Virus record (IMG/VR): IMGVR_UViG_3300044809_000120
Span: 1-28,710 of that record
Source: a virus
Direction: 5' to 3' (one strand)
DNA length: 28,710 nt
The position numbers were made by a program, and so were the translations under genes. This document shows positions 3,567-21,987 of the stretch, in pieces (the stretch's first letter is position 1; every line of letters begins with the position of its first letter). Under the pieces are notes generated by a model, which had not been told where the DNA came from, did not search any database, and saw nothing but the letters and a program-made list of their open reading frames with translations.

Positions 3567-4712
3567 TTACTTAATGTTCATTGATGACCATGCCTCGTCG
3601 AGGAATGGGCGACCAGCAACACGCTCGATCATGCGCAGCGTGATTTGGTCCTGAGCGAAGTCGGTGCCGTTCGTGCCGTAGTCAGTGCGCAGCGCGCCAC
3701 GGTTGCCGATCCAGTACATGCTTGGCACGCAGAACCACAGCTGCGTCTCGTTGGTGCCGGCGCCCAAGTTGGTCGGGATCTCGTCCACGACGTGGATTGG
3801 GCGGTTCAGGAACGTGTCGTAAGACGCGTTGGCCAAGCCGGTCTGACCAGGCAGGTACAGAGGGCGACCCTGGGTGTCTTTCATGTTCAACAGCAGCTGA
3901 ACACCCTTGCTGGACGTGATGAAGTGACCAACATTGCGGTACGCAGTGGGCACACCGTTGAACATCAGGTTGGTGACGTCCGTGTAGGCCAGGTTGCCTG
4001 CCGTGGTGTTTCCCGTGATGACGGTTGGGGTGATGTCGCTGGAGCGGAAGCCGAAGGGCTTGCTCGAACCGTCTCCGTTGACGAAGGCGGCGTTCTCAGC
4101 CAGAGCCAGGGCGATGGCGAAGCGGTCTTCTACCAAGCGCTGAAGGTCAGGGCTGACAGCGGTGTCAACCAAGGACTCATAGCTGAATGGGTCGAGGCCG
4201 GCGAGCTTGTAAGGAACGAGCTGCTTCTTGGCGAACGTCGCACCACTAGGAGTGATGGCAGCGCCTTCACCGACCCAGTAGGTCGTTGGCAGGGCGTTGT
4301 CGTACGGCATGTCCAGGATGGCCGGCATGTCGTTCAGGACGGTTGCGATCTGCCGCATCGGGCTGATGTAGCGCAACTTCTCGATGATGTTGGTCCGCAG
4401 GGTGACTGGTACTAGGACGCCACCCTGGCCGGCGGTGCCGACGGTCTGAGCCTTGGCCCGGATCTCGCCTTCGTCACGCCACTCGATGCCATGGGCTTCG
4501 TAGGACTGCTTGATGATGTCGTTGGCTTTGGTGTGCTCGCCATTCTTGTTACCACTGGCGAGGGCCAGGAAGTATTCCTTAATTTCCGTGCGCTCTTCGT
4601 CAGTCTGCTTGTCGCGGTTCTGATCCGCTTTCAAGACCTTGCCCTTGCTCAGTTCTTTGAGCTTGGCATCCATGGCCTTCGCTAGCTGAGCTTGCTTTTC
4701 TGCAAATGTCAT
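3567..4712 (-). CDS. HK97-fold major capsid protein
   Basis: A 381-residue protein with a charged helical N-terminus (residues about 1-75, EKQAQLAKAMDAKLKELSKG onward) that should be the delta/scaffold-like domain removed by the prohead protease. The HK97-fold body follows (GGVLVPVTLRTNIIEKLRYISPMR, then an E-loop region and LALAENAAFVNGDGSSKPFG, the family's A..lE.A...GdG...P.G motif). The C-terminal segment RVAGRPFLDEAW is typical. The start is preceded by AAGGAGGTGT, an excellent Shine-Dalgarno. It lies directly downstream of the protease/scaffold gene. Confidence 0.92.
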   Translation of the reverse strand: MTFAEKQAQLAKAMDAKLKELSKGKVLKADQNRDKQTDEERTEIKEYFLALASGNKNGEHTKANDIIKQSYEAHGIEWRDEGEIRAKAQTVGTAGQGGVLVPVTLRTNIIEKLRYISPMRQIATVLNDMPAILDMPYDNALPTTYWVGEGAAITPSGATFAKKQLVPYKLAGLDPFSYESLVDTAVSPDLQRLVEDRFAIALALAENAAFVNGDGSSKPFGFRSSDITPTVITGNTTAGNLAYTDVTNLMFNGVPTAYRNVGHFITSSKGVQLLLNMKDTQGRPLYLPGQTGLANASYDTFLNRPIHVVDEIPTNLGAGTNETQLWFCVPSMYWIGNRGALRTDYGTNGTDFAQDQITLRMIERVAGRPFLDEAWSSMNIK

Positions 4713-4749: not shown

Positions 4750-5157
4750 TTACGCGGCGGGTTCGAGTTCGGCTAGCTGGTCAGCCAACTGCTGATCCAT
4801 CTCGGCCTCTTGTTCGGGAGAGAGTTCGGTGTCATCCGAGAACTCGTCTTCCCCGGCACCAGGCTGGTCGTCATCGCCGCCTTTAGCTGGGTCATCTGGG
4901 TTCTCCGAGTCGGCTGCTTCCTCTTCGGCCTTGCGGGCTGCCTCGGCCTCTTCGGCTTCCTTGGCTTCGCGGGCGGTCTTCTCGTCGTCGGTTTCTTCGG
5001 TGTCATCAGGGGTCAGCGTCTTGACGCTGGTCGCGAGCTCGGTCAGTTGGGTTTCGGTGCTGGCCTTGAACTCATCGAACGCCTTGGTTGACGCCTCAAA
5101 CTTCTCGGTCAGGTCCTTCACGCTGTCCACCAGAGCCTTGGCTGTTTCGTCGGTCAT
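4750..5157 (-). CDS. Putative internal scaffold protein, in frame inside the protease gene
   Basis: Met192 of the protease (ATG at 5157-5155) is preceded by AAGGAGG with 8 bases to the ATG, one of the best ribosome-binding sites in the window, although it lies inside a coding region. Initiation here would give a 135-residue acidic, coiled-coil-like protein (MTDETAKALVDSVKDLTEKF...) equal to the C-terminal part of the protease. Lambda makes Nu3 scaffold from inside the C protease gene in the same way. Independent expression is inferred from the Shine-Dalgarno only. Confidence 0.6.
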   Translation of the reverse strand: MTDETAKALVDSVKDLTEKFEASTKAFDEFKASTETQLTELATSVKTLTPDDTEETDDEKTAREAKEAEEAEAARKAEEEAADSENPDDPAKGGDDDQPGAGEDEFSDDTELSPEQEAEMDQQLADQLAELEPAA

Positions 5158-5730
5158 GTTCTTGTCCTCCTTGTCCTCTAGGGACTTCATTTGGGCCTCA
5201 ATGGCCGTTGATTCATCGCGCATCGACTTCAGGAGCCACTTGGCGTCTTTCGTGCTCAGAGAGCCCTCTTTGAGCGCCAGGGCAAGGGCGCGTGGGTTGG
5301 CCGGGATGGGGACGATGCTGACTTCGAGCAGCTCGTTGTCCTTCAGGACAGGTACGTCGTCCTCTGTGTCGATGGTGTGCGGGATGAACCCGGCACTGAC
5401 GCATCGGAGGGTGCCCTTGACGAGCTGGCGGAAGACCAGGCCGGCCTTCGGATTGGTGGCGTCGTCATCGAACTGAGCAGTGATGAAGCTCTTGCCGCTC
5501 TGGTTGGTGCTGATGTCTACGGCGGTGCCGAGGACGTTCTCGGGCTCGTTGGGGTTGTGGCCCCACAAGATGATCGGGTTGGATTCGTAGCTCTTGGTGT
5601 CCCAGGTGCCTTGGTCGACAATCTCGCCCATGCGGTCGACTTGGTCATCACTGAAGCAAAAAGTTATCCGACGATTCTCTTCGTCTACCGATTTAAGCGA
5701 TGTTTGGAATAACTTAGTGATGCGATTCAT
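4750..5730 (-). CDS. Prohead protease with C-terminal scaffold-like domain
   Basis: A 326-residue protein. Residues 1 to about 150 form an HK97-type prohead protease (peptidase U35): His58 in WGHNPNEP, Ser112 in RCVSAGFIP, and the conserved LLEVSIVPIPANP strand near 134-146. Residues about 170-326 are a long, highly acidic helical tail rich in Glu, Asp, Ala and Lys, which is scaffold-like. Such proteins cut capsid delta domains and then themselves during head maturation. The scaffold part also appears to have its own start at Met192 (nested feature at 4750-5157). It sits between portal/MuF and capsid, as expected. Confidence 0.88.
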   Translation of the reverse strand: MNRITKLFQTSLKSVDEENRRITFCFSDDQVDRMGEIVDQGTWDTKSYESNPIILWGHNPNEPENVLGTAVDISTNQSGKSFITAQFDDDATNPKAGLVFRQLVKGTLRCVSAGFIPHTIDTEDDVPVLKDNELLEVSIVPIPANPRALALALKEGSLSTKDAKWLLKSMRDESTAIEAQMKSLEDKEDKNMTDETAKALVDSVKDLTEKFEASTKAFDEFKASTETQLTELATSVKTLTPDDTEETDDEKTAREAKEAEEAEAARKAEEEAADSENPDDPAKGGDDDQPGAGEDEFSDDTELSPEQEAEMDQQLADQLAELEPAA

Positions 5731-5793
5731 CTAAGCATTAGAATAAAACACAAGGTCAAACAAAACAATAGTGAGTGCTGTAGGATGCCGAGC

Positions 5794-6150
5794 ATGGCTA
5801 ACTGTTTTGTACTTCGATGCCCTCGCTCAGCAGACACGGCACGCAACATCTCGCCGTCCGGCCGGTTGCCAAGAAATGTTGCCCTCTGCGGCGAGCACGC
5901 CGAACAAGTAGACGCCGGCGCGCGTTGGTTCGCTCCCGTTCCAAAGGGCCAGGAGCGGAATCATCTGCTGATGGGCGCTGATGCTCCGCCGGTACTGACC
6001 AATTTCCATATCAGTACGGGCCACATGTCTAACGAAGTGGGTAGCCACCTGGTCACGGTCTTCTGGGACGATGCTGACGGGCATGAGGAGCGTTTCGAAT
6101 TCGAGTTGACCGAGGAGCAGGCACGCAACTTGGGTGCAATGCTTGGTTAG
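5794..6150 (+). CDS. Plus-strand moron-like gene, 118 residues, unknown function
   Basis: It is transcribed against the surrounding late operon, between the protease gene (divergent) and the MuF-like gene (convergent). The protein has Cys residues near the N-terminus (MANCFVLRCP, LCGEHAE) and a C-terminal part VTVFWDDADGHEERFEFELTEEQARNLGAMLG that looks like a compact beta-hairpin plus helix. The ATG at 5794 follows AGGA by 8 bases; an upstream ATG at 5785 lacks spacing. Its TAG overlaps the MuF TAA in the four bases TTAG (6147-6150). Orientation suggests independent expression in the lysogen. Confidence 0.65.
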   Translation: MANCFVLRCPRSADTARNISPSGRLPRNVALCGEHAEQVDAGARWFAPVPKGQERNHLLMGADAPPVLTNFHISTGHMSNEVGSHLVTVFWDDADGHEERFEFELTEEQARNLGAMLG

Positions 6151-6953
6151 TAACGCACCGGCAGCAATGCACAGCGGCACGAAACGTGCAGCGGCGGTGA
6201 CGGCACGTCGTCGTAGTTGTAGTGCTGTGTCTTGTCACCGATGGTGAGTGAGTCGCCCTTGTCGAAGATGTTCTCGTCCAGGCCGAACACCTGGCCGTCC
6301 AGTGAGGCGCAGTAGGGGCAGACGGCCTCATCCTTGGCCGTGTACCACTCCTTGGCACTGACCAGACCGCTCTGGCTCCACGCGGTGATGTCGGCGTAGC
6401 CCTGAGCCCGCGCCACCTCGGTATGGGCGATGCGGTCGGCCCTTGTCGTACTGGCAAAGCCCATGACCTTCTCAACGCGGGCACGCAGCTCTTCGCTGGT
6501 CTCCCCCGCCTTGACGCCCTCCGCGAGGGTGGCGCGCAGTTGCTTGGCCGTCTCGTCGTTGATGTCCCCGGACACCTTGATGCTGCGGGTCTTGAAATAC
6601 TGCTCAATCGCTGGCGTGAACGGGTCGAAGGTGCCCTGGCTGATGCCCAGCTCTTTCATGGCGTCGCGGCCTGTCTCGATGAGCACCGTGAAGACGATCT
6701 GCTCCATGGCTCGGGCGAGCTGCTCCTGCGTCCCCTTCCAGTCAACGATGTCGTCGAGGTAGTCCTTGATCCTGTAGTCCTTGCCGATGCGGCTGTAGTC
6801 GAGGTTGCGTAGTGCCTGCTCGCGCTGGGCGTCAAAGATGGCGCGGCAGACCGTGAGTACCTGGGACTCATAAACCTCTGCAGCCTGAGCACGGCGCGCG
6901 ACCTTGGCTTCACCGGCCTGCTCGCGTTCCTCCGGGCTCAGGTCTTTTTTTTT
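6147..6953 (-). CDS. MuF-like minor head protein, apparently made as a -1 frameshift extension of the portal
   Basis: The C-terminal half has MuF/SPP1 gp7 minor-head hallmarks: RADRIAHTEVARAQGYADITAW, then KDEAVCPYCASLDGQ and PPLHVSCRCALLPV (the Cys/His minor head signature). The first ATG in this frame is at 6707, but protein-like sequence continues upstream for 82 more codons (KKKDLSPEEREQAGEAKVARR..., AIFDAQREQALRNLDYSRIG) with no ATG, GTG or TTG. That frame begins inside the nine-adenine run at the end of the portal gene. The simplest reading is a -1 frameshift there, giving about 268 extra residues fused to the portal. Minor head proteins are packaged with the head and may act in DNA ejection. 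Confidence 0.8.
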   Translation of the reverse strand, partial: KKKDLSPEEREQAGEAKVARRAQAAEVYESQVLTVCRAIFDAQREQALRNLDYSRIGKDYRIKDYLDDIVDWKGTQEQLARAMEQIVFTVLIETGRDAMKELGISQGTFDPFTPAIEQYFKTRSIKVSGDINDETAKQLRATLAEGVKAGETSEELRARVEKVMGFASTTRADRIAHTEVARAQGYADITAWSQSGLVSAKEWYTAKDEAVCPYCASLDGQVFGLDENIFDKGDSLTIGDKTQHYNYDDVPSPPLHVSCRCALLPVRY

Positions 6954-8290
6954 ACCCCGGTCAGGGCTTTGGTGTCGCTGCCCTCGTCCGGCGAGCCAGT
7001 GGGGTCGTCCTCGTCATCATCAGGGTCTAGGGGGTCATCGGCTGGCTTCGCGGGTGGGGCGTTCGGGTCAGCCAAGTTGTCCAAGGTGGTCGTGTTGGCT
7101 GGGACGTACATCTGCTGACCAAGCTGGTCAGGCAGTTCGTCGTCGCCATACATGGCGCGGACCTCGTCCATGGTCCACCACTTGTTGACGCCCTTCTCGG
7201 CGGCTTTGAGCTTGGCGTCGACGTCCTCGGGGACGGGGTTCTCAAACTCCAGCTCGAGGGTCGGGTCGTAGACGCTGACCAACGTGGCTTGAATCTGCCG
7301 AGTGAACTGCCGGACGCGGGGCAGGATGTTGATCATGGCGTGCAAGTAGAAGGCGGCGTCCATGTTGGCGCGGTTGACGTTCTCGGTCATGCCGAGGATG
7401 CCGGGGCTGACTCGGAACATGGCCAGAATCTCGTCCTTGCTGAACTTCCGACTGTCCAGGAAGTCCAGGTCGGACTGGCTCATCATCATGTTCTTGACGT
7501 CGCCACCCTCGATGAGCAGTGGCTTGAACGCGTTCTCGGCACCCGTGTGCTCATCGCTGAACTGCTGTTTCCAACGCTCATACGTCTCGTTATCCATGGC
7601 GTTGCCGTCCTTGGTGCTGAACACCAGGCTTGGGCGGGCGTTGTTCGCGAAGAAGCGACGGTTCCACTCCTTCATCTGCTCATCGGTGTCGATGGCGGCC
7701 GCGGAGGCTGAGATGACCGAGCGGCCGATGTACGGGTTGTTGGGGTCGGGGTTGAGGTCGCGGATGAACGCCGCGATCGGGAACTTCTGCTGACCCATCT
7801 TGACGATGCTGTCCATGTAGTTGTCGCCCAGTACGAAGGTGACCTTGTGGGCCGGCAGGACCTGCAAGGCATCGGGTAGTCGGCCCGGCGACGGGATAAA
7901 CGGCACGCCACCCTTCAGCATCAGGACGTAGCTCTCGCCCACCAGGTTCATGTAGGTGAAGTGGAGCTGGCGCAGCTGCTCGCCGGTATGGGCGAAGTTG
8001 GGCTCATCCAGCAGGTCGAGCAGGTCGTGGTCGATGATCTCTTCCCGCTCGCCGTCCTTCTGCTTGCGGTAGAGCTTCATGTTCACGGCGGCACACGGGT
8101 CAGCGATGGACGTGTTGGCGGCGTAGACCCAGCCGGCGTTGGCAGCCAGCTTCTCGGACTTTGAGTCGAAATTCCTCAGCCGACCGCTAGCGGCGTCCCA
8201 GCCGTCCAGCATGCTCAGAGGCGGGATGAACTCCTTGGCTCTGCTGCCGAGGATTGCTTTTGCTAGTCGGATGCGTAAGGGTGCTGCCAT
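6938..8290 (-). CDS. Portal protein
   Basis: A 450-residue HK97/phi3626-type portal: N-terminal region with PPLSMLDGWDAASGRL, the typical FANNARPSLVFSTKDGN segment, then SDLDFLDSRKFSKDEILAMFRVSPGILGM (family motif D.df...rk.s..eI...f.vpp..lG). It is followed by a helical crown and a long acidic, disordered C-terminus that ends in VKKKT. It forms the dodecameric DNA channel at one capsid vertex. There is no good Shine-Dalgarno at the ATG at 8290. A plus-strand gene diverges from it 51 bases upstream. The stop lies only two codons after a slippery heptamer leading into the MuF frame. Confidence 0.92.
   Translation of the reverse strand: MAAPLRIRLAKAILGSRAKEFIPPLSMLDGWDAASGRLRNFDSKSEKLAANAGWVYAANTSIADPCAAVNMKLYRKQKDGEREEIIDHDLLDLLDEPNFAHTGEQLRQLHFTYMNLVGESYVLMLKGGVPFIPSPGRLPDALQVLPAHKVTFVLGDNYMDSIVKMGQQKFPIAAFIRDLNPDPNNPYIGRSVISASAAAIDTDEQMKEWNRRFFANNARPSLVFSTKDGNAMDNETYERWKQQFSDEHTGAENAFKPLLIEGGDVKNMMMSQSDLDFLDSRKFSKDEILAMFRVSPGILGMTENVNRANMDAAFYLHAMINILPRVRQFTRQIQATLVSVYDPTLELEFENPVPEDVDAKLKAAEKGVNKWWTMDEVRAMYGDDELPDQLGQQMYVPANTTTLDNLADPNAPPAKPADDPLDPDDDEDDPTGSPDEGSDTKALTGVKKKT
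6944..6956 (-). promoter_or_regulatory. Predicted -1 ribosomal frameshift site joining portal to MuF
   Basis: On the minus strand the portal frame reads GTA AAA AAA AAG ACC TGA, with nine adenines at 6953-6945. The last seven bases before ACC form A AAA AAG (6950-6944), the strongest known bacterial -1 slippery heptamer. A -1 shift replaces the stop at 6940-6938 with the open MuF frame. Transcriptional slippage on the A9 run is an alternative mechanism. I could not compute a downstream stimulatory structure. Confidence 0.75.
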
Positions 8291-8341: not shown

Positions 8342-9028
8342 GTGAATTGGTTATGGCAAAGTGGCTTGGAGGAAGCAGCGCGAAACCGAAGAGACGGTCA
8401 CATGAGTAGACGACAACTCCTTCGCCGTGCTGCTGCTGTCCGCGAGCGCAGGGGGCAAGAGCAGCGGCGCCTAGAGCATGGCTTCAAAGTGCGCCTCGCG
8501 CTGCTCAATGCCGGGGTCGTGCTAGTGGCAGCCTTTCTCGGGGTGTACGGGGCAAGCTATTCGGCCATTCGGGGCGCTGATCGTCAGGTGCAGGCGCAGG
8601 CTACCTTGAACCAGGAGAACTTCAGGCAGAACCAACGACAGCTCGCCTATACAGGCGTATTAGGGGCGCAGGATGCGCTCTCTAAGTTCGAGTACAGTCT
8701 CGTAACAACCCGCTATCTCCGAGGCGACGGGCAGAGGAATGCACTGCGAGACCATGCACGCGGTCTCTTTGTGCGAATGGCCAGTGCGAACCAGCGGCTG
8801 TCTTTGGTGACGACGCCCACCTTTGCGAGCGCGGGTCAGAAGCTGGCCGTGTGGCACCAGAAATACGTGGTTGCACTACTTCGGGTCCTGCAGAAACGCG
8901 TGGGCCCGCAATTCAAACACACCGTGCCACCCTTCAGCAAAAGGATATTTGGCATTTCGTATCGACTCAGCCAAGCCAGTCATGCTTTCTTACTCGCAGC
9001 TAAGTCCGACGTCGACCCAGGCACTTAG
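8342..9028 (+). CDS. Plus-strand membrane-anchored helical protein (moron between terminase and portal)
   Basis: A 228-residue protein from GTG at 8342; an ATG at 8402 (MSRRQLLRRAA) is an alternative start. It has an Arg-rich N-terminus, one transmembrane helix at about residues 51-70 (LALLNAGVVLVAAFLGVYGA), then a soluble helical domain beginning with a Gln-rich coiled coil (VQAQATLNQENFRQNQRQ). It interrupts the late operon in opposite orientation, and its TAG overlaps the terminase TAA in TTAG at 9025-9028. Function is unknown. The architecture recurs at 20492 and 25982 and would suit a lysogenic membrane or immunity protein. Confidence 0.7.
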   Translation: MNWLWQSGLEEAARNRRDGHMSRRQLLRRAAAVRERRGQEQRRLEHGFKVRLALLNAGVVLVAAFLGVYGASYSAIRGADRQVQAQATLNQENFRQNQRQLAYTGVLGAQDALSKFEYSLVTTRYLRGDGQRNALRDHARGLFVRMASANQRLSLVTTPTFASAGQKLAVWHQKYVVALLRVLQKRVGPQFKHTVPPFSKRIFGISYRLSQASHAFLLAAKSDVDPGT

Positions 9029-10233
9029 GCCGTTCGCACCCGGAAGACCGGCTTCGGCTTGCCCAACACCGTCATCACCGCGTACCGCTCCATGTCGCAG
9101 GCATCGTCGTTCTCTTTGATGGGCTCATCCAGAGCGTTGTCGTTCTTGTCGACCTTCCACGAGTAGTTTTCCTTCTCCCAGGCCAGGTCTTCGCAGGACG
9201 GGTCCATCGTCAGCCGGCCCTGCGCCAAGAGCGACTTGCACTTGTTGATGCCCTCCAGCACCGAGCCCGCGCCCTTCACGACAGCTTCCAGGCGGAGGCC
9301 GAGCTGGCGGTTGAGTGTGTCGATGGCAAGGGGGTCTTCGGAGTCAGCCACCTGGATGTCGAGCCGAGTAGCGCCGATGAGGTCCTTGACCGCCTGCTTG
9401 CGCTGCTCGTCGCTCAGCTTGCGTTTGTAGACCATGCGGTCGACGTGGATTGAATCGTCCGAGCCGATGGCCAGGATGCCAGCGCTGAATGGGTGGTTGT
9501 AGCCGAAGTCGATGCTGAGCGCCCACCTGACAGGCGTGAACGGGCACGGCTTGATGTGCCTATCGCGGTTGAACTCCTCGTAGATGAGCCCTTCCATCTT
9601 GTGGTACTCGGCCAACATCTCCTGAGCGAACTGAGTGGCGGTCATCTCCGAGCGCATCTCGTCCAGCTCGTCGGTGCTCAGGTACGGGTTGTCGAAGCTG
9701 TTGAAGTGGAAGACCTCGTAGTTGGTGTTGGTCTTCGATAGAAGCTCGAGCCGGTAGAGCGACTTGTAGCCCTTCGGCGTGCCCATGAACAGAGCCGCGC
9801 CACGGTAGTCCGCCAAGGTTGCCCGGATGATCTCGCGCCAGTGCTTCTCGAACGCACGCATTGAGTCCAGCTCATCAAGCACCACGAGGCTGTACTTCTT
9901 GCCACGGGCGGTCTCGATGTTCTCCCAGCCAAACAACCGGATGCGGTTCTCCGTGCCGTCAGGGCGCAGCAGGGTGACCTCCAGGCGCTGCTCGTTGTGG
10001 CTGACGTAGTTGGTGGTGCCGATGACCTTGTCCACCAGCTCGACCCACACAATGTCCCTGGCTTGGTCACGGGTCGTGGCGAAGTAAGCCACGGGGCCGG
10101 GTTCGAACAGAGCGGCGCCGACCATCTCCTCGACGGCGTAGGTCGTCTTGCCGAAGCGGCGGCCGCAGCGAAGGACCTTGAAGCGCGCCCTACTCTTCGC
10201 TATCTGTCTTTGCGCGGCGTGTAGTTGTGCCAT
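9025..10233 (-). CDS. terL: Terminase large subunit
   Basis: A 402-residue packaging motor. The ATPase part has Walker A GRRFGKT at residues 24-30 and Walker B LVVLDELD with Asp120-Glu121, followed by the coupling motif MGTPKGYKSLY. The C-terminal RNase H-like nuclease starts at WALSIDFGYNHPF with catalytic Asp242 and continues through VADSEDPLAI. It pumps DNA into the prohead through the portal and cuts it. The start overlaps the end of the terminase small subunit-like gene by 44 bases. Confidence 0.95.
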   Translation of the reverse strand: MAQLHAAQRQIAKSRARFKVLRCGRRFGKTTYAVEEMVGAALFEPGPVAYFATTRDQARDIVWVELVDKVIGTTNYVSHNEQRLEVTLLRPDGTENRIRLFGWENIETARGKKYSLVVLDELDSMRAFEKHWREIIRATLADYRGAALFMGTPKGYKSLYRLELLSKTNTNYEVFHFNSFDNPYLSTDELDEMRSEMTATQFAQEMLAEYHKMEGLIYEEFNRDRHIKPCPFTPVRWALSIDFGYNHPFSAGILAIGSDDSIHVDRMVYKRKLSDEQRKQAVKDLIGATRLDIQVADSEDPLAIDTLNRQLGLRLEAVVKGAGSVLEGINKCKSLLAQGRLTMDPSCEDLAWEKENYSWKVDKNDNALDEPIKENDDACDMERYAVMTVLGKPKPVFRVRTA

Positions 10234-12261: not shown

Positions 12262-12336
12262 ATGTCGGACCACCGACCGCACGTATGTTCGAGTGGCTGG
12301 GCGAGTCGCCGTCGTCCTGTCGGCGGGACCTTCTAA
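12262..12336 (+). CDS. Putative 24-residue leaderless leader ORF before the methyltransferase
   Basis: ATG at 12262 lies six bases after TACACT (12250-12255), so the cassette transcript would start on this codon. The ORF (MSDHRPHVCSSGW...) is basic and ends with TAA at 12334-12336, inside the sequence TTCTAAGGTC that also supplies the Shine-Dalgarno of the methyltransferase ATG at 12348. Its translation could therefore control or couple the methyltransferase. Peptide function is not implied. Confidence 0.4.
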   Translation: MSDHRPHVCSSGWASRRRPVGGTF

Positions 12337-12347
12337 GGTCTGGTGAC

Positions 12348-14024
12348 ATGGGACTCCTGCCTGGTGACAGCATCGAGCTGCGCAAGGCACGGGGCGCGTT
12401 CTTCACGGCGCCGGCCATCGCGGAGCACATGGCGGCGTACGCCATCAACGGCAACCCTGAGGCGAAGGTCCTCGACCCGACCTGCGGCGAGGCCATCTTC
12501 CTCCTGAGCGCTGGGCGTCAGTTGAAGGCCTTGGGACGCCAGACGGGCGACCTTGATGAGCAGCTCTATGGCGTCGACCTGCACGAGTCGTCGCTCGATG
12601 AAGCCATGCGCTTGCTGGAAGGCGAGGCGTTAGACGCGCATCTGGTTGCCTCAGACTTCTTCGAGGTCGACTCGCCGGACATGCTTGGTTCTCCTATGCC
12701 CTTCATGGACGCCGTGGTGGGAAATCCACCCTTTGTTCGCTACCAAGAGCACACCGGTCGTACCCGCCGACTGTCTCAGGCTGCGGCGCTTCGGCAGGGT
12801 GTGCGACTCAGCGGTCTGGCCTCGTCCTGGGCTGCCAGCCTCGTGCACTCTGCCTCGTTCCTGAAGCCCGAAGGCCGGATTGCAATGGTGCTCCCGGCAG
12901 AGCTTCTGACGGTTGGCTACGCAGAGCCTGTGCGGACCTGGCTCAAGCGCCGCTTCGATCAGGTGCACCTGGTGGTCTTCGAGGAACTCCAGTTCGATGA
13001 CGCGCTGGAGAAGGTCGTCCTGCTACTTGCCGAAGGCACTGGAGGCTGCGAGTCGCTCTCGCTGCACTACGTGCGCGACTCAGCCGACCTGAACACTCCA
13101 AGGCCCTACGGCCACTCGAACGTGACCCTGCCCGCCGAAGGCAAGTGGACTGACCTGCTCATGACGCGTAAGCAGCTCAGGCTCTACAAGCGGGTGGCTG
13201 ATGAGCACTTCGTGCCGCTCGACACCTACGGAACACCCGAGCTAGGAACTGTCACCGGTGCCAACAAGTTCTTCACACTGTCTGAGGACACTCGTCGTGA
13301 GTATGGGCTGCGCGAAGATCAACTGCTGCCTATCAGTCCCCCGGGGACCAAGCACCTGAAGGGCTTGGCGTTTACGTTCCGCCAGTGGCAGGAACTTCGG
13401 GACGCCGGTGAGGCGGTCTGGATGCTGCACCCCACCGAGGGCGACGCCTCGCGAGGACTTGAGCGGTACAAGCAACTTGGGCGCGACCTACGCGTTGACG
13501 AGGCCTACAAGTGCCAGGTACGCCGGCACTGGTGGCTGCCGCCAGCAGTCTCCGCTCCTGACTTGTTCTTCACCTACATGAGCCATCGCTACCCGCGGCT
13601 CATCACAAACTCAGCCAAGACCACCTTCGTGAACTCGATGCACGGCGTACGCCTGCACGAGGGCGTTAGCCGAGAGGTCCGGGCGGCTCTCCCGCTGCTG
13701 TGCCTGAACTCAGCGACCATGATTGGTGCTGAGCGGCATGGGCGCTCGTACGGTGGCGGCATCCTGAAGATGGAGCCGCGTGAAGCCGCCAGACTGCCGC
13801 TGCCATCACCCGAAGTACTCGCCACGGCGTGGGCTGAGCTGAAGCCGATTAAGAGCCAACTCGATCGTAAGTTGCGCGTTGGGCATTGGTCCGAGGTCGT
13901 TAAGCGCGTCGACGCGGCGGTTCTTGGTTCAAGTTGCCAAGTCTCAGAGACTGATGTGGGTAACCTGCTCGAGACTTCCCGCAGTCTGAGAGCCCGACGC
14001 CTTGGACGTGACGAAAGCAGCTGA
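12348..14024 (+). CDS. DNA N6-adenine methyltransferase of a type II-like restriction-modification system
   Basis: A 558-residue protein from the ATG at 12348 (AAGG Shine-Dalgarno); an in-frame ATG at 12285 would add 21 residues. Motif X is RKARGAFFTAP (12-22), SAM-binding motif I is VLDPTCGEAIF (41-51), an acidic residue follows in GVDLHESS (75-82), and the catalytic motif IV is NPPFVRYQ (126-133), the hallmark of adenine-N6 methylases. The long C-terminal half should be a target-recognition domain. It transfers methyl groups from SAM to adenine in the recognition site and so protects phage and host DNA from the nuclease encoded two bases downstream. Confidence 0.88.
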   Translation: MGLLPGDSIELRKARGAFFTAPAIAEHMAAYAINGNPEAKVLDPTCGEAIFLLSAGRQLKALGRQTGDLDEQLYGVDLHESSLDEAMRLLEGEALDAHLVASDFFEVDSPDMLGSPMPFMDAVVGNPPFVRYQEHTGRTRRLSQAAALRQGVRLSGLASSWAASLVHSASFLKPEGRIAMVLPAELLTVGYAEPVRTWLKRRFDQVHLVVFEELQFDDALEKVVLLLAEGTGGCESLSLHYVRDSADLNTPRPYGHSNVTLPAEGKWTDLLMTRKQLRLYKRVADEHFVPLDTYGTPELGTVTGANKFFTLSEDTRREYGLREDQLLPISPPGTKHLKGLAFTFRQWQELRDAGEAVWMLHPTEGDASRGLERYKQLGRDLRVDEAYKCQVRRHWWLPPAVSAPDLFFTYMSHRYPRLITNSAKTTFVNSMHGVRLHEGVSREVRAALPLLCLNSATMIGAERHGRSYGGGILKMEPREAARLPLPSPEVLATAWAELKPIKSQLDRKLRVGHWSEVVKRVDAAVLGSSCQVSETDVGNLLETSRSLRARRLGRDESS

Positions 14025-14026
14025 CC

Positions 14027-14920
14027 TTGGTTAGCGAGTTGCCCGATGACCAGACTCGGGTCGAGGCAGTGGTGGGCCACCCGCTGGAGAAGTTCAACGC
14101 TCTGTGTGAACTGATTCAAACCGGTGTCACGACGTTCCAGGCGGTGGAGGCGAACTTCCTTGACCTCATCTGGTGCATGGACACGTACCGCATCAGGCAG
14201 GTCATCCCGCGAGGTATGGGCAATCCAAAGACTAAGAACCTGTCGCGGAAGCTCGATGCCATCTATCGCGGGAAGGGCAACTACTTCTCGACCATCTCGG
14301 CCTTGATCCTTGGCCAGATGACTACCAGCGAACTGGCGTCGCGCAGCAATGTGTGGGGGTTCTCGCAACCACACCAGATCGACATCGCTTGGCCGGCGCG
14401 CGACCAGAGGCCGCTGCAAGACCCCCTGATCTGCTGCGAAGCAAAGCTGACAGGCGCTCCCCCATACGAAGGCAACGAGGGCAGAGGCCCGATGGACGAC
14501 TGGAGCAACCGGCGTAAGGAACTGAAGTTCCAGGCCACCGACCTCAAGCTCTATCGCAACGCGGCCAACACAGCCATCTTCAACTGGGACTTGTGGCGAC
14601 GAAGCGCTCCCCCACATGTCTACTCGCTGTGGGCGGCCCGCATCCTGAAGCCGACTGACGTTCCGAAGATGATCAAGGAAGCGCAGGTGCTCACGTCGAC
14701 GTACTCCGATGGCGTGGGCATCTATGCCTTCCGCCCGCGAGATGATGGTCCGGGGTACGAACCGGCACCGCTTTCCAGGGGCGTCAACGAGCGCGTGACC
14801 AGCCTCGACAGTGTCTTGGCCATGGTTTCAGCGCAGATCAGCCAGATCATGGCTGAGAACAACAACCGCGTGCCGGAGCCGGTGACACCACCAGCGCACG
14901 TGGCGTCTGACGACGTCTAG
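14027..14920 (+). CDS. Putative restriction endonuclease, PD-(D/E)XK type
   Basis: A 297-residue protein starting at TTG two bases after the methyltransferase stop, so translation is coupled. A PD-(D/E)XK core is visible: HQIDIAW with Asp119, then PLICCEAKLTG with Glu138 and Lys140, the E-x-K metal-binding strand. The helical N-terminal half may recognise DNA. Pairing with an adenine methyltransferase makes this the cognate restriction enzyme. The family is not one I can name and cleavage specificity cannot be read from the sequence. The long minus-strand frame at 13589-14617 is a shadow. Confidence 0.75.
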   Translation: MVSELPDDQTRVEAVVGHPLEKFNALCELIQTGVTTFQAVEANFLDLIWCMDTYRIRQVIPRGMGNPKTKNLSRKLDAIYRGKGNYFSTISALILGQMTTSELASRSNVWGFSQPHQIDIAWPARDQRPLQDPLICCEAKLTGAPPYEGNEGRGPMDDWSNRRKELKFQATDLKLYRNAANTAIFNWDLWRRSAPPHVYSLWAARILKPTDVPKMIKEAQVLTSTYSDGVGIYAFRPRDDGPGYEPAPLSRGVNERVTSLDSVLAMVSAQISQIMAENNNRVPEPVTPPAHVASDDV

Positions 14921-16648: not shown

Positions 16649-17467
16649 TCATGCCGCCACCTCTACGGCAGCCGGCCTACCTGCTTTCAAGATGGCGTCG
16701 GTGGCGCTGAAGACACTGCGTATAGAGCGCTGTGGAGGGTCAGAGTTGCGGAGCCAGTGCTGGACGTAGGCCCGGCTCTCGCTTGGGCTCCACTGTTCTT
16801 CGGGCACTTCGAGCTCGTTCATGACCAGGTACGCCGTGCCTTCGGCTTCGAACTCTTTGATGCCCCGGTGCTCCTGGTACTCGCTGGGGTCTTCGGCGGT
16901 ATGTCCAACGACGATGTGGCCGCACTCGTGAATCAGGGTCTTCAACGGGTAGGGAGCCACCGGGTTGATGGCCACCTCTCTGCCGACGCTGTAGCCCGCC
17001 GCGTTGCCATCGAACTCCGCGAACTTGGTCATGGTGATGCCCAGCGCACCAAGAGCGCGTTCTTTGCTCCACGCGGGGGGTTCATAGTCAGGCAGTGGGT
17101 CTCCCTCGGTCATGGAGACCGGAAAGATGCAATTGACCGGCTTGAACTTGGTGATGGTCTTCGGCTGGCCCTTGTCGTCGACCTCGTCCTTCAGCTTCAC
17201 GGTGATGGGCCGGAGGATGGCGGCTGCGCGGGCACCGCGTTGGACTTGGCGGTTCATGCTGGCCCAGCGCTTGTACGTGGCTACTGGCTCAAGGGGCACG
17301 CCCTGGCTCAGCAGCAGTATCTGGTTCAGGTAGCTGTACGAGTAGAACCGCGAGTACGTGTCGCCCAGGCTGCCGGGAGCCGTCAGGGCTTCTTCCAGCA
17401 GGTGTGACCAGTCGAGCTCTTTGGCGGGCGCCGGCGGAGCGTTTGGTTGTTTTGTTCTACTGGCCAT
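16649..17467 (-). CDS. ArdC-like antirestriction protein with zincin metallopeptidase domain
   Basis: About 272 residues. The N-terminal ArdC ssDNA-binding domain shows RFYSYSYLNQILLL and VQRGARAAAILRP (family patterns S..N...l and kG..a..i..P). The C-terminal domain has the zinc motif HECGH at about residues 180-184 and a third ligand in EFEAEGTAYLV near 209. ArdC proteins coat incoming single-stranded DNA and protect it from restriction. The ATG at 17467 follows GGCAGGTG, overlapping the upstream 62-residue gene. It is the last gene of early operon A and would act as the phage establishes in a host with restriction systems. Confidence 0.85.
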   Translation of the reverse strand: MASRTKQPNAPPAPAKELDWSHLLEEALTAPGSLGDTYSRFYSYSYLNQILLLSQGVPLEPVATYKRWASMNRQVQRGARAAAILRPITVKLKDEVDDKGQPKTITKFKPVNCIFPVSMTEGDPLPDYEPPAWSKERALGALGITMTKFAEFDGNAAGYSVGREVAINPVAPYPLKTLIHECGHIVVGHTAEDPSEYQEHRGIKEFEAEGTAYLVMNELEVPEEQWSPSESRAYVQHWLRNSDPPQRSIRSVFSATDAILKAGRPAAVEVAA

Positions 17468-17645
17468 CACCTGCCTCTTTGACGACGGTCTGAACGCTCT
17501 CGCCGAAAAACTTGCGGAACTCAGGCTGGTTCAGACGGCGGCGTGCCCGATTAGCTGACGAGTTAAATCGGTATCCGGCCAGCAAGCGAGGCAACAGAGC
17601 TGCCCTGCTCTTTCGCTGTGCGTCCTTGCAATCTGTCTTTTTCAC
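17457..17645 (-). CDS. Small basic protein, 62 residues
   Basis: Starts at GTG (17645) after GGGAAG and overlaps the ArdC-like start. It is Arg/Lys-rich (CKDAQRKSRAALLPRLLAGYRFNSSANRARRRLNQPEFRKFFGES) and could bind nucleic acid, but no fold is recognised. GTGA overlaps the stop of the preceding short gene, which supports both as members of operon A. Confidence 0.55.
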   Translation of the reverse strand: MKKTDCKDAQRKSRAALLPRLLAGYRFNSSANRARRRLNQPEFRKFFGESVQTVVKEAGDGQ

Positions 17646-21003: not shown

Positions 21004-21987
21004 ATGGCACTCACGCGCGCTGAGCGGTTCCGGCTGAAGAGCGCCATGCTCGCGGAAACCGGCCGGGAGGAGTCCAGTTGGGATCTACGGCAGTTGAACC
21101 TCCTGCTCGGTGAGTTCGGCCTCGTAACCCTCGACGGTGACTGGAACGGCCCGAGCTTCGAGGACGTCATCGCCAAGCTCTCGGACACGGACCTGGTCGA
21201 GATGTACTCCCTTGTCACTGGTGAGACGGCTGAGCAAGTCCAGGACGCCATAGAAGCCGCTGACGATGGCGCCAACTGGAAGGCTGGCTACGTCCGGCTG
21301 TTCATCTCCCACTCCGCGGTGCACCGAGACTTCGTGGGAAAGGTCTCTGATGAGCTGGCAGTTGTCGGCATCGACGGCTTCGTGGCGCACAACACGATGG
21401 AGAAGGGCAAGCCCTGGCAGACACAGATCGAGCACGCGCTCCGGACCATGGACGCCTTCGTAGCCCTCGTGCATCCAGAGGTCAACGACAGTGCCTGGTG
21501 TCATCAAGAGATCGGCTGGGCGCTAGGCCGACGAGTACCGAAGTACGCCATCAGGATGGGGGCCAACCCGGCAGGCTTCCTCGGAAGCGATCAGTGGCCC
21601 TCAGCAATGATGAGCTCTCATAAGGACGTCGCCGCCGACATCCGCAACTGGCTGTCCATGACGCTGGGCCTGGGCGACAAAATCGTGAACGGCTTGTTGC
21701 GCGCGCTGGAGGACGCGAACAACTACGTCGACGCCGGAGCCGCATCAGAGCGGCTTGCCAGTCTCGGCGATCTGACGCCGGAGAATTGGGAGCGTCTAAA
21801 GAAGGTCTTCTGGGGCAATGATCAGCTGTACGGCGGCGTGCTCGCTCGGCGGCAGCTGAAGCCCTTCTACGAGGGCAATGGGCAGGAGTGGCCCCCGGAA
21901 AAGCCTCCTGAGCCCAAGACTCCGATCATCAACAACGATCCGTGGGCCGTCCCTCAGAGCACCGGAACGGACGAACCTCCCTCCTAG
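21004..21987 (+). CDS. TIR-domain protein, probable antiphage effector
   Basis: A 327-residue protein from ATG six bases after TACCGT (20992-20997). Residues about 97-215 are a TIR domain: VRLFISHSAVHRDFV, GIDGFVAHNTMEKGKPWQTQIEHAL, FVALVHPEVNDSAWCHQEIGWALG. Glu169 in the WCHQE motif is the expected catalytic residue of NAD-cleaving TIRs. Residues 1-95 form an unrecognised N-terminal domain (FRLKSAMLAETG; LSDTDLVEMYSLVTG), probably sensing or oligomerising. The C-terminus is Pro-rich. TIR effectors act in abortive infection by depleting NAD. Its stop overlaps an opposing gene's stop in CTAG (21984-21987). Confidence 0.85.
   Translation: MALTRAERFRLKSAMLAETGREESSWDLRQLNLLLGEFGLVTLDGDWNGPSFEDVIAKLSDTDLVEMYSLVTGETAEQVQDAIEAADDGANWKAGYVRLFISHSAVHRDFVGKVSDELAVVGIDGFVAHNTMEKGKPWQTQIEHALRTMDAFVALVHPEVNDSAWCHQEIGWALGRRVPKYAIRMGANPAGFLGSDQWPSAMMSSHKDVAADIRNWLSMTLGLGDKIVNGLLRALEDANNYVDAGAASERLASLGDLTPENWERLKKVFWGNDQLYGGVLARRQLKPFYEGNGQEWPPEKPPEPKTPIINNDPWAVPQSTGTDEPPS

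Follow-up and report, generated by a model that had tools for sequence, protein, structure and literature searches.

The late genes on the minus strand of the viral record IMGVR_UViG_3300044809_000120, analysed here as a window of 28,710 nucleotides (nt), raise the question of how a MuF-like head protein can be made from a reading frame that lacks a start codon over its first 82 codons. This frame overlaps the end of the HK97-type portal gene (6938..8290, minus strand), an open reading frame (ORF) of 450 amino acids (aa) ending in GVKKKT, whose 3' end reads GGG GTA AAA AAA AAG ACC TGA. The run of nine As (A9; 6945-6953, T9 on the plus strand) together with the following G forms the putative slippery site (6944..6953, minus strand), which offers two overlapping heptamers in the portal frame, A AAA AAA at 6947-6953 and A AAA AAG at 6944-6950; the portal-frame stop codon TGA (6938..6940, minus strand) is located 3 nt downstream of the slippery heptamer. 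From just 5' of the A9 run, the -1 frame is open to 6147 (MuF coding region, 6147..6953, minus strand) and encodes 268 residues starting with KKKDLSPEER. The frame has its first ATG at 6707; the 82 codons before it (6708..6953, minus strand) and the stretch back to the preceding stop are free of ATG, GTG and TTG. The end of the portal gene, the A9 run, the open -1 frame and the absence of a start codon before 6707 had already been given in a preliminary description of the locus and are reproduced here. AAAAAAG at 6944-6950 is the sole copy in the window, and A9 is its longest homopolymer, with all others not exceeding six. Since lysine is encoded elsewhere in the portal and MuF genes by only 5 AAA versus 33 AAG codons, the A9 run does not reflect ordinary codon choice. 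The answer that we hold with high confidence is programmed slippage at the end of the portal gene, which would yield portal rings of mixed composition.

According to this proposal, the end of the portal gene would be a programmed -1 recoding site at which most translation ends at TGA, giving the 450-aa portal subunit, and a fraction slips into the -1 frame on the A AAA AAG heptamer of the A9 site. The product of the shift would be a portal-MuF fusion of 714 residues (446 + 268, in good agreement with the about 715 previously estimated) with the predicted junction peptide ...GVKKKDLSPEER. As both products share the portal part, their co-assembly into one ring of 12 subunits is expected, and the MuF domain would then be carried into the head by presumably only some of the subunits. 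Across the family, the conserved element would be the slippery heptamer itself, with slipping leading to the fusion in most members and to a shorter portal in several members having both domains in a single frame. The conserved site, the frame relation and the homology and predicted structure of the trans-frame region are direct results; that slippage occurs, at which rate it does so and what role a mixed ring would play are inferred. For an average of one fusion in each 12-subunit ring, about 8% shifting would be required.

Both partners of the predicted fusion match curated family profiles. The portal protein, aligned with its relatives, matches Phage_portal of the HK97 type (PF04860, E 1.6e-53) with 182.4 bits at a cut-off of 39.1, and the -1 product matches Phage_Mu_F, the MuF/SPP1 gp7 family (PF04233, E 9.4e-20), with 71.9 bits at a cut-off of 29.6. 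Two PHROGs portal families, phrog_12 and phrog_2662, match the window portal. The latter represents one protein that matches the window in succession, with profile positions 54-441 corresponding to the portal and 460-708 to MuF (E 2.9e-32 for the MuF part); solved HK97-family portals match at about profile positions 50-410. The continuous frame through both domains that characterizes the phrog_2662 type is not found in the window, where TGA ends the portal frame and MuF lies in -1. The 82 codons preceding the first ATG align with relatives, single-frame fusions included, and are homologous throughout. In the A9 members, pairwise nonsynonymous divergence in the trans-frame region (dN 0.53-0.79) stays below synonymous divergence (dS 1.0-2.8), the latter being near saturation. 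Moreover, an AlphaFold2 model of the 268-residue product, based on 17 sequences, shows a mean predicted local distance difference test score (pLDDT) of 90.2 and a long N-terminal helix at residues 7-51 with pLDDT mostly at 93-96. The first Met of the frame is residue 83 and lies inside modelled helix 2 (72-101); hence, a protein started at ATG 6707 would lose helix 1 and have helix 2 cut. By homology and modelling, the trans-frame region upstream of the first ATG is protein-coding, as its protein-like appearance had suggested earlier. Solved structures or folds matching the window MuF were not found.

For establishing whether the junction is maintained in related phages, viral contigs and bacterial genomes were scanned and several dozen portal-MuF junctions were sorted by frame. 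Seventeen out-of-frame junction sequences were obtained, representing about 14 lineages with the window included. In every one of them, MuF is found exactly in -1 relative to the portal frame, and a zero-frame heptamer of the form X XXY YYZ precedes the portal stop within the short portal/MuF overlap, so that the window shares this arrangement with 16 further junctions. Outside the junctions, zero-frame heptamers of this form (Y = A/T) are rare in both genes across the relatives (12 in 17,057 codons). At this background rate, the chance of finding a heptamer at all 14 non-redundant lineages amounts to a log10 P of about -27, a figure that overstates the strength of the evidence because the calculation assumes independent lineages. 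The heptamer is A AAA AAG in A9-A10 runs in the window and in contigs L019, L021, L072 and L108, A AAA AAC in L097, A AAA AAA with seven As in L004 and L011/L017, C CCA AAA in L002/L012, L013, L016, L018, L026, L050/L056 and L054, and G GGA AAA in L042. The GGGGTAAAAAAAAAGAC site of the window recurs in L021 and L072, and similar sites are present in L019, L097 and L108. As different kinds of heptamer occupy one homologous position, the conservation is not simply inherited identity, and neither sequencing error nor decay explains it. The programmed-slippage interpretation put forward in the preliminary description is supported by this conservation of site and -1 frame relation across about 14 lineages; the comparison also revealed portal-MuF fusions in a single frame.

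Named genomes bearing -1 members as prophages are those of Rhodococcus aetherivorans, Rathayibacter sp., Williamsia limnetica, Dietzia maris and Arthrobacter sp. Hiyo8. Additional members besides the query genomes were not found among 395 class-level, 295 family-level and 18 genus-level genomes, and the 50,697 deposited phages contain no close relatives, all portal and MuF matches being below 60% identity. Left out of the count were L041, L146/L147, L148/L158, L159 and L160, which a script had sorted as separate and which are distant with junctions lacking a heptamer, as well as L014, which has no portal match. In L002 (portal ORF ending at 4016), L004 (ending at 5003) and L072 (minus strand), about 200 extra residues are inserted between the portal core and the frameshift site. 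This stretch contains a 2H phosphoesterase domain (PF13563, E 7.7e-10 in L002), which also matches the anti-CBASS protein Acb1 (PF23474, E 2.9e-6 in L002); in L072, the similarity was noted by sequence inspection. In these members, an anti-defence enzyme may thus enter the head as part of the portal itself.

Single-frame portal-MuF genes exist in nine relatives of this clade, seven of which keep a zero-frame heptamer at the junction, namely, L006 (A10), L010 and L025 (A9), L027 and L028 (A10) as well as L037 and L109 (C CCA AAA). A -1 slip at these seven sites would lead to a stop after 1-20 codons, giving the portal alone. In the distant single-frame fusions L060, L078 and L079 (minus strand), T9 is found at the same boundary (reverse complement; near 6253, 1718 and 4753, respectively), and both other frames stop within 8 codons. 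The linker of the outgroup single-frame fusions L030 and L031 is without a homopolymer run. In the tree, single-frame and -1 members form interleaved clades, with several nodes being weak. The chances appear about even that the slippery site is a selected trait ensuring that both forms of the portal subunit are made, irrespective of which one is the default, and that lineages have toggled by small indels between a gag-pol-like type, in which slipping gives the fusion, and a dnaX-like type, in which it gives the short portal, keeping the heptamer while the types were exchanged. If so, a mixed, asymmetric portal ring would be functionally important. Retention of the site in single-frame relatives leads to the prediction that long and short portal chains are present in virions of either architecture.

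The same two products could also arise during transcription, if As are gained or lost by RNA-polymerase slippage on the A9 run and the resulting mixed mRNA pool is read normally into portal and fusion. In line with such transcriptional slippage, for which a homopolymer of at least about nine A or T residues at the junction is expected, the window has A9, and A8-A10 runs are found in several relatives, single-frame fusions among them. In favour of the main proposal, E. coli reporter cassettes showed 40% frameshifting with nine As and 10% with seven (PMC3711429). However, the C CCA AAA and G GGA AAA members possess only four As and the A AAA AAA C members seven, all with the same -1 architecture, and the family as a whole can therefore not rest on transcriptional slippage. 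We consider this explanation possible, though clearly the less probable one. Members with C CCA AAA, G GGA AAA and A7 should act through the ribosome, and RNA-polymerase slippage may contribute or even dominate in the A9 members. Alternatively, MuF might be a separate gene reached via reinitiation or an internal start, for which a GTG overlapping the portal TGA in L013 and GTG codons close to the junction in L002, L042 and L050 could be claimed. This is improbable, as in the window the first start is located 82 codons in, so that helix 1 would be lost and helix 2 truncated, the first ATGs range from 29 to 101 codons among other members without a conserved start, and the heptamer conservation would be left unexplained.

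Even less credit can be given to a homopolymer error in sequencing or assembly of the metagenomic contig, with the true gene being a single-frame fusion. Homopolymers are indeed error-prone, the relatives include single-frame fusions, and L092 has A7 where L072 from the same metagenome has A9. Nevertheless, the out-of-frame A9 site recurs in the independent contigs L019, L021, L072 and L108, and isolate genomes show the -1 arrangement as well, with heptamers that are not homopolymers. Least probable of all is a split due to a decaying pseudogene or a neutral frameshift mutation; broken portal or MuF genes are found in some prophage members (L011, L013, L052/L111), but in the window and most of the about 14 lineages neither frame shows any other damage, MuF is always in -1 and a heptamer is always present, and dN remains lower than dS across the trans-frame region.

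Several observations, on the other hand, weigh against programmed slippage. L005 is a single-frame fusion without the heptamer, and consequently the slippery site is not indispensable; in L111, the second exception, the element reads CCTAAAA and the portal is damaged. Damage to portal or MuF genes is seen in L011, L013, L016 and L052/L111. L092 (4930-4964) has A7 with a truncated MuF in +1/-2, the only case of this frame relation. Furthermore, the Shine-Dalgarno-like GGGG of the window is only about 2 nt away from the heptamer and not unusually strong, a significant downstream RNA fold was not predicted for the window (z -0.49) or for most relatives, and in E. coli, heptamers without stimulators reach at most about 10-fold over a background near 0.05% (PMC4066793). 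In the same host, A AAA AAG is among the most efficient heptamers, albeit not the strongest one as stated earlier; in combination with the IS3 pseudoknot, C_CC.A_AA.G attained 54% (PMC4066793). The A7 of L092 compared to the A9 of its relative L072 may itself result from decay or a homopolymer error.

Among possible stimulatory elements, Shine-Dalgarno pairing received no support, with pairing energies being unexceptional compared to other stretches of the portal gene, and neither did a common RNA fold downstream of the site (z-scores between -2.1 and +1.2, none shared by eye). In front of the heptamer, the C CCA AAA group and L042 have GAGGGTAAGAAGAGCNN, and GAGGGTAAGCAGAGC is found there in L004/L011. 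The only hint of a cis-element is nucleotide conservation of GAGGGTAAGAAGAGC (codons GAG GGT AAG AAG AGC) just 5' of the heptamer in the C CCA AAA group and L042, where it is identical in seven of eight members, L016 differing by two bases; portal codons at identical residues elsewhere agree at 54% in these members. Scanning 2.9 million viral contigs with a pattern built on GAGGGTAAGAAGAGC retrieved 12 stretches, and portal-MuF junctions accounted for 10 of these. Situated 12 nt 5' of the heptamer, this element might stimulate slippage as an internal Shine-Dalgarno-like sequence, but its predicted pairing is unexceptional. The GAGGG at 12 nt 5' of the heptamer is conserved in the C CCA AAA group, and the window is without it at that spacing.

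MuF proteins as a class support the initiation of infection and are able to deliver toxins or effectors to host cells, and the portal is a 12-fold ring. Given this symmetry, a minority fusion would position a small, controlled number of MuF copies at the vertex through which the DNA leaves. In phage SPP1, gp7 of the MuF family binds the portal gp6, is present in few copies inside the head and improves infection (PMC6316719). By analogy with such an internal head protein, a mixed portal ring would be the natural inference, although gp6 and gp7 are separate proteins from two separate genes (PMC6316719). The same two domains in the same order are combined in single-gene portal-MuF fusions (phrog_2662; Microbacterium phage clusters EA3, EA5, EA8 and EB; Arthrobacter phage Sonali), which are known and have been called unusual. 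In these, both domains share a reading frame and carry a single product annotation (PMC7302621), whereas the default product of the window would be the portal alone.

Programmed frameshifts are known from other phage structural genes (PMC5009743). Likewise described there, the G/GT tail assembly chaperones of lambda have a slippery heptamer close to the 3' end of a late gene for a structural protein, give a minority fusion and are conserved across phages. They involve, however, other genes and another function, as the window fusion would be a virion portal subunit and not a chaperone. Major capsid and tail proteins of Lactobacillus phage A2, T3 and Listeria PSA are also made in two virion forms from one gene by frameshifting (PMC5009743), whereas the window site would act on the portal, of which there is one ring of 12, and add a MuF domain. 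The dnaX genes of E. coli and Thermus also use A AAA AAG or A9; there, slipping gives a short product, as it would in the single-frame relatives, in contrast to the long product expected in the window. MuF-like genes are among the apparent false positives of PRFect, with no portal case. The open-licence literature searched, which included part of the 2016 recoding review, did not yield any account of frameshifting between portal and MuF, and within this coverage a conserved recoding switch of this kind appears to be undescribed for portal genes. For annotation, this means that portal genes of this family are liable to be cut short and MuF start sites to be miscalled.

The remaining late genes of the window on the minus strand comprise the large terminase upstream (9025..10233; phrog_2, E 3.5e-38) as well as the prohead protease (4750..5730; PF04586, E 1.1e-7), which is the next late gene after MuF, and the major capsid protein (3567..4712; PF05065, E 4.4e-48). 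Two plus-strand ORFs are interspersed, one between MuF and protease (5785-6150) without a PHROGs family match and one between portal and terminase (8342-9028) without a Pfam or PADLOC match. Elsewhere in the window, a Type II methyltransferase (12285-14024, plus strand; PADLOC MTase_II, E 5e-125) is followed by a restriction-enzyme-like protein with a weak match (14027-14920, plus strand; E 9e-7), probably forming a phage-borne restriction-modification pair. A TIR-domain protein (21004-21987, plus strand; PF13676, E 1.4e-13) is a possible phage-borne defence gene, and an ArdC N-terminal-like protein (16649-17470, minus strand; PF08401, E 1.2e-4, at the curated cut-off) is a possible antirestriction factor.
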